A stretch of 48,596 nt of DNA, taken from positions 1 through 48,596 of the forward strand of contig VXNO01000043.1 of assembly GCA_009840575.1 (NCBI GenBank). Direction: 5' to 3'. Source of the stretch: Chloroflexota bacterium. GTDB lineage: Bacteria > Chloroflexota > Anaerolineae > Aggregatilineales > Phototrophicaceae. Position numbers and translations under genes: made by a program. The notes under the pieces are model-generated. The model had not been told where the DNA came from. It ran no database searches and saw only the letters and a program-made list of their open reading frames with translations. This document shows positions 15,905 to 22,527 of the stretch, piece by piece (the stretch's first letter is position 1; the number at the start of each line of letters is the position of its first letter).

Positions 15905-17248
15905 ATGATTTCGAAGATGCGCCTAGTTGTGATTCTTGCTCTACTTTTGACATTGCTGGCAGGCATCGCCGGCGCGCAAGATGCCGTCAGCATCACCATT
16001 CGTTGCAAAGCCAGCCCGCCGGAAGAAGACTGGCGCTGCAACAACTTTGCGGAAGTCGAAGCCCAAGTGGAAGCTGACCTGGGCATCGAAATCGACTTGA
16101 ACTTGATCCAGGACAACGCTGGCTGGGGCGACTACAAGAACGAATTTGTGTTGGCTTCGGAAGCTGGCGAAGCGCCTGACATCGTCTTGTCCGGGCACGA
16201 GGATATTGGCGCCTGGGCACCGGCCGGGTTCATTATCCCGCTGGATGATGCCATCCCCGCGCACAGCGAATTTGACGATATGGTGCCGTCCTTGTGGGAT
16301 TCGCACGGGTATGCGGGCCAAATTTGGGGCATCCCGCAGGATGCCGAAGCGCGACCCATCTTCTACAGCAAGCTGCTGCTGCGCGACCTGGGCTGGAGCG
16401 AAGAAGAACTTGACTCCTTGCCAGACCGCGTCGCCGCCGGCGAATGGACCTTCGCCGATATGCAAGCGACAGCGGTTGCGGCTGTTGAAGAAGGCGTCGT
16501 CGACAGTGGCAACGGCTTCTGGCATCGCCCCAGCAACGGTCCGGATTTCCTGTATTACTACTTCGGGCACGGCGGCGAGGTGCTGGATGAAGGCGGCAAC
16601 CTGGTTGTGGACAGGGACGCCCTGGTCGCGACGTACGAGCTGCTGGGCGGCTTGGTGGAGTCGGGCGCGATGCGCTCTGATATCATAGGCATCGACTGGA
16701 ACGAAGTCTGGCACCCCAGCGTCGGCGGGGCGGAAACTGTGCTCTTCGCCGCTGGCGGCACCTGGAACTGGCCCAACTGGGCGATCAACTATGTAGCTGA
16801 TCAAGGTGGCGACGAGTATCTCTTTGAGAATATCGGCTTGACGCTGATCCCCGCTATGGCAACCGGCAAAGCCATCACCCTGACGCACCCGCTGACTTAC
16901 ATGATCAGCAGCGGCAGCCCGCACCCGGATGTGGCTCTGGCTTTGATTGCCGCCATCACCACACCCGAGCACAACAACAAGCACGCCATCGACAGCTTCC
17001 ATCTGGGCATTCTCAACGCGCAGTTGGAATCCGAGGCCTATGCCAACAACCGCTTGCTGAGCAGCGCGCACTATATGCTGGATCACACGACGGCGCTGCC
17101 CAACCATCCGGGTTGGAATGCCTGGTCAAACGCCTACTTCCTTGGTATCCAGGCTGTGGAAACAGGCGAGGCAGACGCGGCTGGCGCAGCTGACATTGCC
17201 ATCGCGCAGATGCAGAATGAGTTGGGAGACGGCATCGCCGTTCGCTAG
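15905..17248 (+). CDS. ABC transporter extracellular binding protein, family 1 (sugar/glycerol-phosphate type)
   Basis: A 447-residue binding protein with a signal peptide (residues 1-24, ending ...AGIAGAQ). The absence of a lipobox cysteine near the cleavage site suggests secretion or an uncleaved anchor. The mature part has the type I binding-protein pattern: EAGEAPDIVLSGHEDIGAWAP near the hinge, then LPDRVAAGEWTFADM. It captures solute outside the cell for the two permeases encoded downstream. TAAGGAGG and AAAGGGAG precede the ATG. The GDPD gene at the end of the operon suggests glycerophosphodiester-like ligands, but this is inferred. Confidence 0.88.
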   Translation: MISKMRLVVILALLLTLLAGIAGAQDAVSITIRCKASPPEEDWRCNNFAEVEAQVEADLGIEIDLNLIQDNAGWGDYKNEFVLASEAGEAPDIVLSGHEDIGAWAPAGFIIPLDDAIPAHSEFDDMVPSLWDSHGYAGQIWGIPQDAEARPIFYSKLLLRDLGWSEEELDSLPDRVAAGEWTFADMQATAVAAVEEGVVDSGNGFWHRPSNGPDFLYYYFGHGGEVLDEGGNLVVDRDALVATYELLGGLVESGAMRSDIIGIDWNEVWHPSVGGAETVLFAAGGTWNWPNWAINYVADQGGDEYLFENIGLTLIPAMATGKAITLTHPLTYMISSGSPHPDVALALIAAITTPEHNNKHAIDSFHLGILNAQLESEAYANNRLLSSAHYMLDHTTALPNHPGWNAWSNAYFLGIQAVETGEADAAGAADIAIAQMQNELGDGIAVR

Positions 17249-17392: not shown

Positions 17393-18349
17393 TTGTCTAC
17401 ACTCGGGAAAAGCAGCCGCAACAATGCCCTGCGCGCCCATGCCAGCGCCTATGGCTTTATGGCACCGGCGGGTATCCTCGTCATCGTCTTTTTTCTCATC
17501 CCGGTCGCCATCATTCTGTACCTCAGCGTAACCAACCTGGCCAGTTCCAACTTCACCTCCAATCTGGCGGCGATGGAATTCATCGGCTTGCGGAATTATG
17601 AGACTCTGCTAAACGATCAGTTCGCCCGCAAGATATTTTTTAATACCATCTTTTATGTGCTGGTTACGTTGTCGATCTTCAATGTATCGCTGGCATTGAT
17701 TGTCTCGCTGCTGACGACGCATATTGACCGTGGCGCGGGTTTCTTCTTCCGCGCCTTGTGGATTTTGCCGCGCATCACCTCGCCGGTCGTTTACATCCTG
17801 CTTTGGAAACGGATGATGGCGGAAGCGCCTTTCGGCATCATCAACCAGTTCAACGGCTGGCTGGGTATGCCCACCTACAACTACATCGCCACCAATCCCT
17901 GGGTTTTCGTGGTCTTGGTCAATGGCTTCATCGGGCTGTCCTTCGGCATGATCATCTTTACTTCCGCCATTGAATCGATCCCCAAAGACCTGCTCAACGC
18001 CTCGCTGGTGGACGGCTCCTCCAAGCTGCAGCGCATCCGTTATGTGATATTGCCCATCATCCGCTGGCCCTTGCTCTTCGTCTTTACCTATCAAACCTTG
18101 TCGCTACTGACATCGTTTGTCGAAATCCAACTGCTGACCGATGGCGGGCCCGGGCTCTACCGCACCGAGGTCTGGTCGCTAACTGCCTATCACCGCGCTT
18201 TGTCAAATTATTTTGGCAACGCTCAATGGGGCTATGGCTCGGCATTTGCCGTCCTGCTGGTGTTGATTGGCGTGGTGTTGGCGGTGATTTATATGCGCGT
18301 ATTCCGTTTTGACGAGCTGGTGGCGGAGCCGCGGGTGGAGACGTTATGA
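17393..18349 (+). CDS. ABC transporter permease, MalF-like
   Basis: A 318-residue sugar-type permease with six predicted membrane segments. The first is FMAPAGILVIVFFLIPVAII. The ATPase-coupling (EAA) loop reads IPKDLLNASLVDGSSKLQRI followed by ILP. The start is probably TTG 17393, because it gives the usual cytoplasmic N-terminus and lies about 9 bases after GAGGGGGG from the preceding repeat. The next methionine would remove the N-terminal arm. Three hairpins separate it from the binding-protein gene. Its stop overlaps the next permease start (ATGA), which implies coupled translation. Confidence 0.9.
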   Translation: MSTLGKSSRNNALRAHASAYGFMAPAGILVIVFFLIPVAIILYLSVTNLASSNFTSNLAAMEFIGLRNYETLLNDQFARKIFFNTIFYVLVTLSIFNVSLALIVSLLTTHIDRGAGFFFRALWILPRITSPVVYILLWKRMMAEAPFGIINQFNGWLGMPTYNYIATNPWVFVVLVNGFIGLSFGMIIFTSAIESIPKDLLNASLVDGSSKLQRIRYVILPIIRWPLLFVFTYQTLSLLTSFVEIQLLTDGGPGLYRTEVWSLTAYHRALSNYFGNAQWGYGSAFAVLLVLIGVVLAVIYMRVFRFDELVAEPRVETL

Positions 18350-19926
18350 CCTTGCGCCAAGCGTTATTCAGCGGCAGCAGCAAAGCGAAAACAGACGCGC
18401 AGCCGCCGAGCCTGGGGCAGGACCTGCTGGAAAGTCTGCGCCTGGCAGCCATCAGCGCGCTGGTTTTATTGCTGACGGCATTTGCGCTCTCGGGCCTCAT
18501 CGGTCCCTTCTTTGCTTTGGGCAGCGTGGAAGAAACGGTGACGGATGTATTGACGCGGCTCTGCCTGTTGGCGCTGCCGTTTGTGGCCTACATCGCGGCA
18601 GTCAGCGTCGCTCGTCCCTACACGGCAAAGGACTGGCGGCGGGCGCTGGGCCTGGCGCTGGGCAGCAGCTTATTGATTTACGCCCTTATTTCGGCGGCGC
18701 ATTATGTGCTGGATTATGGCGTTTTCGCGCCGCGGCAATCGCTGCAAATGAACCTGAGTCAAACAGAAGCCGGCATCCGTGTTGACGCGGTTGCGCCCGG
18801 GGGAGCTGCCGATAGCGCAGGCTTGCAGGCGGGCGATATTATCACAGCCATACGCCGGGATGCGGTCGACCTGGCGGCTTTCAACCTGCGCCTGAGCCAG
18901 TCGCAAGCTGACGACCCGCTGCGGCTGCGTTTTCTGCGTGGCGATGAGCAGCTGCAAGAGACTGTCCGCGTCGTCCTCGTCACCGACAAGCAAGTGGAGG
19001 CGTTGCTGCCGGGCTTGGCAATGGCTTTGGCCTTCAGCGCCATCATCTTGGTATTGCCTGGACACTGGGCACCCTACATCGCGCTGGTCGGCTTGCTATT
19101 GCCGCTGCTGGTTGGTTATTTCTGGGTCATCATCGCGACATTTTCCTACCGCACCGAGGGTTTGATCCCGCTGGATGGGAAGGACAACTTTGGCGGCTTC
19201 ACGTTGAAGAACTGGGAGTCGATCTTCGCTGGCAACATCGCGGGCATGGAGTTCAACATTTTGCCCATTCTGATGACTTCGCTGGCGATTGCCATCATCA
19301 TGACCTGCGTGGTGCTGTTGGTATCGTCGATGGCTGGCTATGCCTTGTCGCGGATGAGCTTTCCCGGTCGGCGTTTCTTTTTGTCCTTCACGCTTATCTT
19401 GCATGGCTTCCCGGCAATCACACTGTTGATCCCGATTTTCATTGTGCTGCTGCGGCTGGGGGATATTCCGCTTATCGGTGATTTGATCGGCTTCAACACG
19501 GCTGGCGGCATCGCTATGGTCATGGTCGCCTTCCAGCTACCGCTTGGCGTTTGGCTGATGAAAGGCTTCTTCGATAATATCCCTTGGGATATGGAGCGTT
19601 CAGCTTTGATTGACGGTGCCTCGCGCTGGCGCACCTATTGGGAGATTCTCTTGCCGCAGATCCGCCCTGGCTTGCTGGCGCTGGGCATATTTGCCTTCAT
19701 CGGCGGCTGGAACGCCTACATTATCCCGGCGACGTATTCCATCGGCTCTGGCGTCAGCAACCTGCCGGTCTTTTTGAATGAACTGATCGACGAAACCGCG
19801 CCCGTGGACTGGAATCAAGTGGCGGCAGTCGGTCTTTTCCAATTGATCCCTATCTTCATTTTCTTCATCTTCGCGCAGGAATACCTGCTGAATATCTATG
19901 CCGGCGGCACCAAGGGCAGTTCATAA
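18346..19926 (+). CDS. ABC transporter permease (MalG-like) with inserted PDZ domain
   Basis: A 526-residue permease, almost twice the usual MalG length of about 280. Residues ~240-526 are a standard MalG-type unit. Its EAA loop reads IPWDMERSALIDGASRWRTY then ILLPQIRPG. The extra N-terminal half has membrane segments near 34-58, 70-89 and 101-122, a PDZ domain at ~134-213 (GIRVDAVAPGGAADSAGL, QAGDIITAIRRDAVD), and a fourth segment at ~221-237. Basic residues before segment 1 and between segments 2 and 3 put those regions inside, so the PDZ domain should face outward. The binding protein, a peptide C-terminus or a membrane protease are possible PDZ partners. The ATG overlaps the upstream stop. 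The ATPase gene follows by 18 bases. Confidence 0.9.
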   Translation: MTLRQALFSGSSKAKTDAQPPSLGQDLLESLRLAAISALVLLLTAFALSGLIGPFFALGSVEETVTDVLTRLCLLALPFVAYIAAVSVARPYTAKDWRRALGLALGSSLLIYALISAAHYVLDYGVFAPRQSLQMNLSQTEAGIRVDAVAPGGAADSAGLQAGDIITAIRRDAVDLAAFNLRLSQSQADDPLRLRFLRGDEQLQETVRVVLVTDKQVEALLPGLAMALAFSAIILVLPGHWAPYIALVGLLLPLLVGYFWVIIATFSYRTEGLIPLDGKDNFGGFTLKNWESIFAGNIAGMEFNILPILMTSLAIAIIMTCVVLLVSSMAGYALSRMSFPGRRFFLSFTLILHGFPAITLLIPIFIVLLRLGDIPLIGDLIGFNTAGGIAMVMVAFQLPLGVWLMKGFFDNIPWDMERSALIDGASRWRTYWEILLPQIRPGLLALGIFAFIGGWNAYIIPATYSIGSGVSNLPVFLNELIDETAPVDWNQVAAVGLFQLIPIFIFFIFAQEYLLNIYAGGTKGSS

Positions 19927-19944: not shown

Positions 19945-21027
19945 ATGAAAGTCACAATTGATAATCTCACCAAGAAGTTCGGTGATGTAGTTGGCGTCGA
20001 GAACCTGACCTTGCACATCGACGATGGCGAGTTCGTCGCTTTTCTTGGTCCTTCTGGCTGCGGCAAGACCACCACGTTGCTGACCCTGGCCGGCATCTAC
20101 AAGCCGAGCGATGGGCGGATCCTGTTTGGCGAGCGGCTGGTCAATCTCGTGCAGCCGAAAGACCGCAATATCGGCATGGTCTTTCAAAGCTACGCGCTGT
20201 ATCCGCACATGACCGTCTTCCAAAACATCTCGTATCCGCTGAAGCTAAAAAAGGTAGCCAAGAACGAACAGCACGAGCGCGTCCAGCAAGTCGCGGATGT
20301 GATGGGCATTGGCGAGCTGCTCGATCGCCGTCCGGGGCAGCTGTCCGGCGGGCAGCAGCAGCGAGTCGCCTTGGGGCGGGCGCTGGTCAAGGAACCAGAT
20401 TTGCTGCTGTTTGACGAGCCCCTATCCAACCTGGACGCGCGCCTGCGACTGACCATGCGCGGCGAAATCAAGCACTTGCAGAAAGATCTGGGCATCACCT
20501 CCATCTATGTGACGCATGACCAGGTCGAAGCGATGACCATGGCCGACCGCATCGCCGTGATGAATGCCGGGCAGCTGCAAGCCTTTGATTCGCCGGACGA
20601 ATTGTACAATCGCCCCAAAACGCAGTTCGTGGCTGGCTTCGTCGGCAATCCGCCTATGAACTTCATCGATGTCGAAGTCTCAGCCGCCAACGGGCAGTAC
20701 CTTGCCGAAGCGGAGGCGCTGCGCCTCACGCTGGGGAAGGAACGTGGCGAGTCGCCAGCCACCTGCGACGGCGCAGTCGTCATGGGCGTCCGCCCGGAAG
20801 ACATTCAGATAGCCGAAGCGGGCGATGTCGCCGGCGAGATCTTCGTGGTCGAGCCACTGGGGCGCGAAGATTTAATTGATGTGCGCGTCGGACGACACAG
20901 CTTCCTCGTGCTGGCCAATACCGAAAAGCAGCACCGCGCCGGTGAGCGCGTCAAGCTGAAATTCGATACGCAGCAACTCCAATTCTTCGATCTCAAGACC
21001 TCGCGCTCGCTGTTGTGGCGTCAGTAA
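19945..21027 (+). CDS. ABC transporter ATPase, MalK/UgpC type
   Basis: A 360-residue sugar-ABC ATPase. Walker A is GPSGCGKTT, the Q-loop lies in MVFQSYALYPHMTV, the signature is LSGGQQQRVALGRAL, Walker B is LLLFDEPLSNLD, and the switch histidine is in YVTHDQ. A C-terminal TOBE-type regulatory region (from about residue 240) matches MalK/UgpC. It would power the two permeases upstream. The gene lies 18 bases after the PDZ-permease stop and 15 bases before the GDPD gene. Confidence 0.95.
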   Translation: MKVTIDNLTKKFGDVVGVENLTLHIDDGEFVAFLGPSGCGKTTTLLTLAGIYKPSDGRILFGERLVNLVQPKDRNIGMVFQSYALYPHMTVFQNISYPLKLKKVAKNEQHERVQQVADVMGIGELLDRRPGQLSGGQQQRVALGRALVKEPDLLLFDEPLSNLDARLRLTMRGEIKHLQKDLGITSIYVTHDQVEAMTMADRIAVMNAGQLQAFDSPDELYNRPKTQFVAGFVGNPPMNFIDVEVSAANGQYLAEAEALRLTLGKERGESPATCDGAVVMGVRPEDIQIAEAGDVAGEIFVVEPLGREDLIDVRVGRHSFLVLANTEKQHRAGERVKLKFDTQQLQFFDLKTSRSLLWRQ

Positions 21028-21042: not shown

Positions 21043-22527
21043 ATGCGTGACCTGCCGATTCAGGGCTTGGAGCGGGCTATCGATTCAACGCGCGACCATG
21101 AGCTTGCCTTGCGGCACGCGCCCATCATTCGTTTTGATGCCAATGAGCCTTTCTTCCCCTCCGTTGTCGGCTACACCGTCTTTCGTGAAAGCGCGCCATC
21201 CCCGTCCTTTCCCCGCCAGATTCAGCTTGGCGAGGCGATCGATTGCGCCATTGAATACGCCATCTGGTGGGACTGGGATATCCAGCACCTGTATGAACTT
21301 GAGCATATCTGGGTCTATATCGGGAAGGGTGGCCAGCTTGTGGCGGCGGAGGCGAGCTGGCATGGCGGCTATCATGTGATGCTGGACGCGGACAATCCGC
21401 TGCCCTTGGAGGGGAGGCGCCTGGCGCTGTATTCCGAGCCTGGCAAACATGCTTTCGCCCGCGAGCCAGGAGACTTGCTGCAAAGACGCGCTAAAACAAT
21501 CGCCGGCTGTGGCGCTCATGCCGGGCGCATGGGCGTCCATGTGACGCCGCTCTTCACCGGCATCATCAAGGGGCGCAAGCCGCTAGCGAATCGCCTGGTG
21601 CATGGCTACCTGGAAAGCCGACGATTCTTGCCATCCTTTGATTTTTCCATCCGCTTTGACCTGCGCCACAGCATCATCCTGCCTTGGCGTCATCTCTACG
21701 CCTGGATACCGGGGCGTGTTGAGCAGTGCATTGACCGGCTGCGGGCGACTGTCGCGCCCCATCAACGGCGGGTCCTGCGCATCGCCCATCGTGGCGCGTC
21801 CGCCTATGCCCAGGAGAATTCCCTTGACTCCTTCCGCAAAGCCGCGCAGCTCGGCGCGGACTTGGTGGAGATCGACATTCGTGTCAGCGCGGACCATGTT
21901 CCGGTCGTGACGCACGACAGCAGCTTGAAGCGGCTCTATGGCATCGAGGGCATCGTATCGGATTATCGCCTGGACGAGCTGCGCGTGATGACGGCGGCGG
22001 CGGGCGGCATCCTCAGCTTTGACGAGGCGCTGGAAAGCTGCCGGGGGCTTGGCTTGGGCTTGTATCTGGACTTGAAGCAGTTGACTATGCGGGCGGCGGC
22101 GGACATGTTGGCGGCGATTGACACGCGGCAATACCTGCGTAATGTCATCTTTGGCTCCTTTCGTCCCGATACCCTGGCAGACATCAAAGCGGCGCGCCCG
22201 GATGCCCGGACTTCGATCCTGTTCAGCGCCACGCGGTTGGACGCGGTGAAGCTGGCGCAGTCGATTGGAGCGGATTATGTGCATCCTTGCTGGGAAAACC
22301 GGGCAACGCAACCCCACCGACTGCTCACGCGCGAGTGGATAGAGGCGGCGCGGCGGGCGGAGTTGGGCATCGTCTGCTGGCACGAAGAACGTCCGGCTGA
22401 AATTGCCGCGCTGATGAAGCTGGGCGTAGACGCCATCTGTTCCGACAAGCCGGAGCTGCTGCTGGCGGCGGCGCGTTCGATAGGGGGCAGGCTTCACCAT
22501 AGAGGAAACGAGGCAACGCAGAAATAA
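21043..22527 (+). CDS. Glycerophosphodiester phosphodiesterase with unusual N-terminal domain
   Basis: A 494-residue protein in two halves. Residues ~245-485 are a GDPD TIM barrel with the active-site set IAHRGASAYAQENS, DLVEIDIRV and VVTHD. It hydrolyses glycerophosphodiesters to glycerol 3-phosphate and an alcohol. Residues 1-240 are a separate domain with AIWWDWDIQHLYELEHIWVY and a later EASWHGGYH, rich in tryptophan, acidic residues and histidine. It vaguely recalls Vps62/DUF946-like sequences, but I do not assign it. No signal peptide is visible, so it acts in the cytoplasm on imported substrate. It is the last gene of the transporter operon. Confidence 0.88.
   Translation: MRDLPIQGLERAIDSTRDHELALRHAPIIRFDANEPFFPSVVGYTVFRESAPSPSFPRQIQLGEAIDCAIEYAIWWDWDIQHLYELEHIWVYIGKGGQLVAAEASWHGGYHVMLDADNPLPLEGRRLALYSEPGKHAFAREPGDLLQRRAKTIAGCGAHAGRMGVHVTPLFTGIIKGRKPLANRLVHGYLESRRFLPSFDFSIRFDLRHSIILPWRHLYAWIPGRVEQCIDRLRATVAPHQRRVLRIAHRGASAYAQENSLDSFRKAAQLGADLVEIDIRVSADHVPVVTHDSSLKRLYGIEGIVSDYRLDELRVMTAAAGGILSFDEALESCRGLGLGLYLDLKQLTMRAAADMLAAIDTRQYLRNVIFGSFRPDTLADIKAARPDARTSILFSATRLDAVKLAQSIGADYVHPCWENRATQPHRLLTREWIEAARRAELGIVCWHEERPAEIAALMKLGVDAICSDKPELLLAAARSIGGRLHHRGNEATQK

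Follow-up and report, generated by a model that had tools for sequence, protein, structure and literature searches.

A PDZ domain within a MalG-type ABC importer permease of Chloroflexota: predicted extracytoplasmic position, single gain and a putative role in binding-protein docking

The window considered here, i.e., the whole analysed stretch of 48,596 nucleotides, carries an ABC importer operon in which a MalG-type permease with an added PDZ domain is encoded together with a solute-binding protein (SBP), a second permease and a MalK-type ATPase, the first same-strand gene after the ATPase being that of a glycerophosphodiester phosphodiesterase (GDPD). The genes and the parts of the PDZ-bearing permease are located as follows.

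15905..17248, + strand: sugar-type solute-binding protein, extracytoplasmic (SBP_bac_1, 75.9 bits)
17393..18349, + strand: MalF/UgpA-type permease partner, 318 aa (BPD_transp_1, 35.9 bits)
18346..19926, + strand: PDZ-bearing MalG-type permease, 526 aa, one chain
18412..18711, + strand: three added membrane helices, residues 23-122 (AlphaFold helices 23-58, 64-87 and 97-122)
18727..18984, + strand: PDZ domain, residues 128-213
18739..18750, + strand: altered carboxylate-binding loop SLQM, residues 132-135
18994..19053, + strand: fourth added helix, residues 217-236 (AlphaFold)
19066..19923, + strand: MalG-type permease core, residues 241-526 (BPD_transp_1 at 327-514)
19594..19668, + strand: presumed EAA coupling loop, residues 417-441, ERSALIDGASRWRTYWEILLPQIRP (sequence reading)
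19945..21027, + strand: MalK/UgpC-type ATPase (ABC_tran, 117.7 bits; OB_MalK; TOBE_2)
21043..22527, + strand: GDPD (GDPD, 114.9 bits, residues 249-471)

The segment 417-441 reads as an EAA-like loop. With 54.8 bits for BPD_transp_1 against a cut-off of 26.4 and with SugB and MalG chains of the PDB matching the core at E 2e-27 to 4e-20, the protein is a MalG-type permease, while its PDZ segment belongs to the PDZ superfamily both by score (PDZ_2, 28.6 bits, curated cut-off 27) and by fold, the nearest folds being the ligand-binding PDZs of HtrA2, DegS and DegP. Thus, the original prediction that both domains reside in one chain was borne out, as were the four extra membrane segments, which correspond to the AlphaFold helices listed above. 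PDZ models match all 26 module sequences at E 0.1 or better; a precomputed PDZ family is absent in 51 of 120 relatives among the matches listed. The helices and the PDZ of the module are predicted with high joint confidence, and helices 97-122 and 217-236 flank the domain through short linkers that keep it close to the membrane. The PDZ is accordingly modelled between these two membrane helices on the predicted extracytoplasmic side, in line with the outside location proposed originally. A fold search with the membrane part of the module returned match lists filled by PDZ matches. No peptidase family was detected in the permease by Pfam at E 1 or better, and its sequence has no HExxH motif.

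PDZ-bearing importers were absent from the literature among the matches listed. According to the main text of a survey of microbial PDZ proteins (PMC6411480), 93% of 7,852 proteins are assigned to 12 families, 7% are unclassified, and 88% of the classified ones are protease-linked; neither “transporter” nor “permease” occurs in that main text, which agrees with the earlier suggestion that such a domain is unusual for an ABC importer.

Of the 33 other genus genomes sampled, 27 contain full-length relatives of the permease, and so do three (G047, G051 and G038) of 27 more that represent the family and order; a fourth of the latter (G040) has a close core with the module absent by eye. In a phylum-wide sample of 400 genomes the core was present at E 1e-50 or better in ten, own genome included, and none of the nine others has the module. 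Two core motifs, run against the contigs, picked out 76 loci that overlap with the genus, family and order genomes. Of these loci, 47 contain the fusion, 26 do not and three are cut inside the core; 46 of the fusion loci are labelled as Chloroflexota or its subgroups and one as “Bacteroidetes”. Searches by core motif or core profile would miss independent fusions of PDZ and permease elsewhere. On a core tree of 61 rows, from which 21 near-identical genus rows and five too short ones (L075, L081, L100, L101 and L103) were left out, the fusion requires one change, on a branch with support of 91/93 that is present in 87% of bootstrap trees, and the nearest row outside the fusion clade is L158, from the same order and without PDZ. 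The N-terminal four-helix module with its PDZ was thus gained once in the sampled tree. The module was met only within this permease: a profile search restricted to a protein length of about 135-430 aa found 35 matches, and the seven short ones that were read (P0135-P0141) appear to be permease genes that are broken or incomplete rather than a stand-alone form, P0136 to P0139 and P0141 running out of frame and P0135 and P0140 stopping short. Mean differences among 28 genus sequences give a dN/dS of 0.145 in the PDZ, as against 0.18 in helices 1-3 and 0.043 in the core, values to be read with synonymous sites near saturation (mean pS 0.54-0.65). Purifying selection keeps the PDZ, less tightly than the core.

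The glycine of the X-phi-G-phi carboxylate loop serves binding of the C-terminus in HtrA-type PDZ domains. The corresponding position 134 was read in 168 distinct permeases, a set to which one genus contributes many members: 122 have Gln there, 43 Glu, two Gly and one His, so that the loop Gly is absent from 166; in 26 diverse permeases Gln or Glu occupies this place in 25, the exception being L072 with Gly. In PDZs from other proteins of the same order, counted by eye, Gly was found in 26 of 26 readable loops, these controls being top-scoring PDZ_2 matches and therefore biased toward canonical domains (from the initial 30, the misframed L249, L255 and L258 as well as L247, ending before the loop, were dropped). 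Loop residues S132 and L133 and strand b2 are conserved in the permease PDZ. Across the 26 diverse permeases the most conserved elements are the turn 170-175 and the strands 165-169 and 191-208. R171 and R198 are present in all 168 permeases and R195 in 167. Among the controls, R198 is also common, but R171 and R195 are not, their places being taken mostly by Gly, Glu or Asp and by Thr, respectively; Arg at these two positions is therefore family-specific. Going by PDZ topology, R193, R195 and R208 face away from the peptide groove. Five of the deepest members (L067, L068, L070, L076 and L077) lack R170, R193 and R208, so only R171, R195 and R198 count as general. E63 in loop 1 is kept by 165 of 168 permeases. 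Conservation is lowest in helix B, in permease PDZs and likewise in the controls, and the variability of this helix was dropped as an argument against peptide binding.

The N-terminus of the window SBP (...LAGIAGAQ) reads as a Sec/SPase I-like signal with no Cys at the lipobox position. The SBPs of PDZ operons long enough at the N-terminus number 42 (the window and 41 loci), and 41 of them have, by eye, a signal without lipobox; that of L033, with an over-long start, is lipobox-free by regular expression only, and in L040 the flagged match falls in an over-long start, the actual signal having no lipobox. Among 14 Chloroflexota loci without PDZ, a lipobox-like Cys was recognised by eye in all nine readable SBPs (L078, L079, L096, L097, L147, L151, L152, L153 and L155), L096 and L097 belonging to one genome and L147 having Asn before the Cys; the sister row L158 does not enter this comparison since its SBP is cut. 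The regular expression flagged 13 of 25 loci without PDZ and passed over 12, missing L096, and it also flags ambiguous signals of Bipolaricaulota and the like, with Cys inside the hydrophobic stretch. The same absence is seen beyond the PDZ operon. In the genome of the window, which has 47 PF01547 matches, 43 of the 45 other SBPs read are devoid of lipobox, and of the remaining two, one has a match in an over-long start and the other is without a signal (the starts of L142, L161, L165 and L173 are uncertain). In eight other PDZ-bearing genomes (G038, G051 and G460-G465) the regular expression was positive in 1 of 30 and 3 of 30 loci, none convincing, the reading covering the 30 best of 62 and the 30 best of 104 matches (60 of 166), several with unreliable starts. 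The lack of lipobox was thus rejected as a peculiarity of the window SBP in favour of a lineage-wide trait, and for this reason the correlation between PDZ and missing lipobox has one or few origins and is confounded. Sugar-type SBPs of the lineage mostly carry SPase I or Tat signals without lipobox despite the presence of Lgt and LspA genes (matches in 61 of 61 and 60 of 61 genomes, respectively). The Lgt-like gene of the window's genome (G000:C33:11310-12293), a single frame of about 360 aa, is matched by the LGT model in two pieces, which looks like an insertion and recurs in the genus.

Two further traces of adaptation to the PDZ were sought in the partner subunits. The last residue of the SBPs is in most cases Arg, Lys or Gln, their C-termini are alike at loci without PDZ, and the conserved terminus of the NELGD...R type, considered as a PDZ ligand, gives no specific evidence. 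On the stem branch of the PDZ clade no rate burst specific to the SBP or MalF was found, the ratios to the ATPase (2.6, 4.1 and 2.8) being equalled or exceeded on other inner branches, so that adaptation of these subunits to the PDZ gains no support from stem rates.

A precedent comes from TAXI-TRAP transporters such as VcGluQM, where the claw, a domain in a periplasmic loop between membrane helices, accompanies an untethered SBP, is modelled to bury 816 square Å with it and was proposed by the authors to dock it, the same report leaving open whether docking domains and SBPs without a tether occur together (PMC11574862), the main text of which does not mention PDZ. The claw family DUF3394 (PF11874) matches two of 26 module sequences at E 0.1, in the case of L072 over the PDZ with 15 bits against a cut-off of 28.2; the window permease has no match at E 1. 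In the phylum search, positions 102-151 of the DUF3394 profile fell, below threshold (21.8 bits), on the PDZ of a CtpA-like protease. Claw sequences were met at L277:3729-4307 and in plasmid TRAP-permease loci L281, L282, L283 and L285. In full plasmid claws the two halves of a PDZ can be read in exchanged order, the first stretch comprising helix B and the b5-b6 hairpin and the second the loop, b2-b3, helix A and b4. A profile of five of nine claw sequences (left out were the near-copy L280, L284 and L286 with the motif lost, and the cut L287) was aligned by hhalign with 27 control PDZs and 26 permease PDZs. The unswapped claw gave 91.7% with the controls and 93.5% with the permease PDZs over about 40 columns, the claw with swapped halves 94.2% (70 columns) and 96.1% (80 columns), and the reversed sequences 0.4% and 0.1%. 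The permease PDZ profile outscores the ordinary one on five of five single claws, and native claws exceed the best of 1,000 shuffles in five of five cases with the permease profile and in four of five with the control one. Swapping raises single-claw scores slightly (e.g., from 13.8 to 14.2 and from 21.6 to 23.3 bits), and Pfam PDZ models reach E 0.04-0.16 only. Since these gains are small, it is the profile-profile result and the element order that carry the case for permutation. Judged from sequence, kinship of the claw with PDZ is well supported, and its being a circularly permuted PDZ is likely rather than proven.

Around the PDZ loci, codirectional GDPD genes occur at 29 of 47, 25 of these in the genus-level group, and at nine loci no GDPD lies in that direction although over 5 kb are available after the ATPase, one of them (L066) having it on the opposite strand; the link is partial, and the expectation that such permeases always sit with GDPD genes proved false. 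The only neighbours common to at least 4 of 15 loci compared are the transporter genes, partly GDPD, and frames overlapping these. The first 245 residues of the window GDPD match no Pfam family at a threshold of E 1. At L033:9578-17575 no matching ATPase or GDPD lies within 8 kb downstream, relatives being different in this respect, and at L059:5646-6982 the SBP gene is split over two overlapping frames, perhaps by assembly error. Some relatives bear the JGI label “inositol-phosphate transport system permease protein”, and together with the frequent codirectional GDPD this makes a substrate of phosphate or polyol type possible.

We place first, at about even chances, the reading of the PDZ as a putative SBP-docking platform. 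The MalG-type subunit would have gained an N-terminal four-helix module holding the PDZ just outside the membrane, where it may raise the residence of a free, non-lipidated SBP at the transporter. It would thereby fill the role of the MalF-P2 loop of E. coli, with a different fold and at a different site, and parallel the docking proposed for the claw. Docking would probably use a face other than the canonical C-terminus groove, perhaps that of R171, R195 and R198. This reading is favoured because the PDZ fold is predicted outside on the very subunit where the SBP must dock, because the module, gained in one change and constrained (PDZ dN/dS 0.145), occurs within this permease only, because SBPs of PDZ operons have no lipobox as against those of the nine readable Chloroflexota loci without PDZ, and because the claw provides a precedent that is itself PDZ-related. 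Against it count the lineage-wide absence of lipobox, the PDZ-independent SBP C-terminus and the lack of a stem rate burst; neither C-terminal conservation nor neighbourhood nor stem rates added support. Eight PDZ_2 matches against more than 40 SBPs in the genome of the window also imply that most importers do without such a domain. Even so, tethering of the binding protein is the best of the three functions initially suggested.

The conserved E63 and R171 fit as well a rigid structural or lipid-facing scaffold, in which the basic face would lie on acidic residues of loop 1 (E63) or on lipid headgroups and stabilise the importer, with no separate protein partner; the short linkers and the joint confidence of helices and PDZ speak for it, but relatives with the full operon exist without the module, which is thus not needed for assembly in general, and we hold this reading as rather improbable. 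A ligand sensor would gate the importer in the way HtrA PDZs control their protease, by binding a C-terminal peptide that belongs to a damaged protein, to the SBP or to some secreted partner. It would accord with the nearest folds and with the conserved S132, L133 and strand b2; nevertheless, the exchange of the loop Gly for Gln or Glu in 165 of 168 permeases, set against the canonical-leaning controls, and SBP C-termini that are unchanged without PDZ weaken the earlier idea of peptide sensing and make it unlikely, helix B deciding nothing since controls vary there too. PDZ domains are general protein-docking folds, and the partner could be another extracytoplasmic protein, such as a protease, a protein of the wall or an enzyme at the surface that supplies substrate, and a GDPD does follow in part of the family; yet no further neighbour is shared by at least 4 of 15 loci, the window GDPD has by eye no signal sequence, and no protease gene recurs at that frequency, which leaves the suggested protease link unsupported and this reading quite unlikely.

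In a broader and more tentative form of the docking reading, to which we incline less than evenly, a membrane-held PDZ may be a recurrent docking device for free SBPs replacing the lipid anchor, gained separately by an ABC importer as a MalG fusion and by TAXI-TRAP transporters as a claw of permuted PDZ, its use being non-proteolytic and, in the ABC case, independent of a classical carboxylate loop. Textbooks present type I ABC importers as machines built from a fixed set of parts, and a PDZ on an importer subunit widens this picture along with the protease-centred view of microbial PDZ domains given by the main text of the survey (PMC6411480). The altered carboxylate loop, the operon pair with and without module and the link between PDZ and claw are the main additions; the pair is a natural one for asking how a free SBP stays at its transporter, and the relation of docking domains to untethered SBPs becomes testable in two unrelated transporter families.

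Among the closest known systems are the module-less MalG-type relatives from Bipolaricaulota, Atribacterota, Aerophobota and some Anaerolineae, with the same operon order where read and core identity up to 62%; complete ones measure 276-336 aa when counted from the earliest start, and they have no added helices or PDZ. The UgpBAEC-UgpQ uptake operon consists of SBP, permease, permease, ATPase and GDPD genes. The window operon has the same order; however, its scores for UgpC (412.7 bits, cut-off 432), UgpA (76 bits, cut-off 335, the top NCBIfam match of the MalF/UgpA-type partner) and UgpE (59.9 bits, cut-off 297) all lie under the NCBIfam equivalog or subfamily cut-offs, and GDPD is missing in part of the PDZ-permease family. 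Unlike HtrA-type proteins (HtrA2, DegP, DegQ and DegS), the permease PDZ has no protease domain, its loop Gly is replaced, and Arg stands at 171 and 195, where control PDZs differ. The P2 domain of MalF in E. coli MalFGK2 (residues 91-271) is extracytoplasmic and contacts the SBP (PMC3150292). As with the module, a permease subunit of an importer of this class carries here an additional domain on its outer side; P2, however, is larger and lies in MalF, while the PDZ is placed N-terminal to the core in the MalG-type subunit and brings four helices of its own. The fold of P2 differs from PDZ, and the 318-aa partner in the window is too short for a loop of P2 size. Since extracytoplasmic docking domains on permeases are already known from MalF P2 and proposed for the claw, the earlier notion of a docking domain of a new kind goes too far, whereas the unusual placement of a PDZ on an importer stands. 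The claw, finally, is likewise a globular domain between membrane helices of an added permease extension, but it belongs to a secondary transporter, sits on a C-terminal three-helix extension and has its elements apparently in rotated order.
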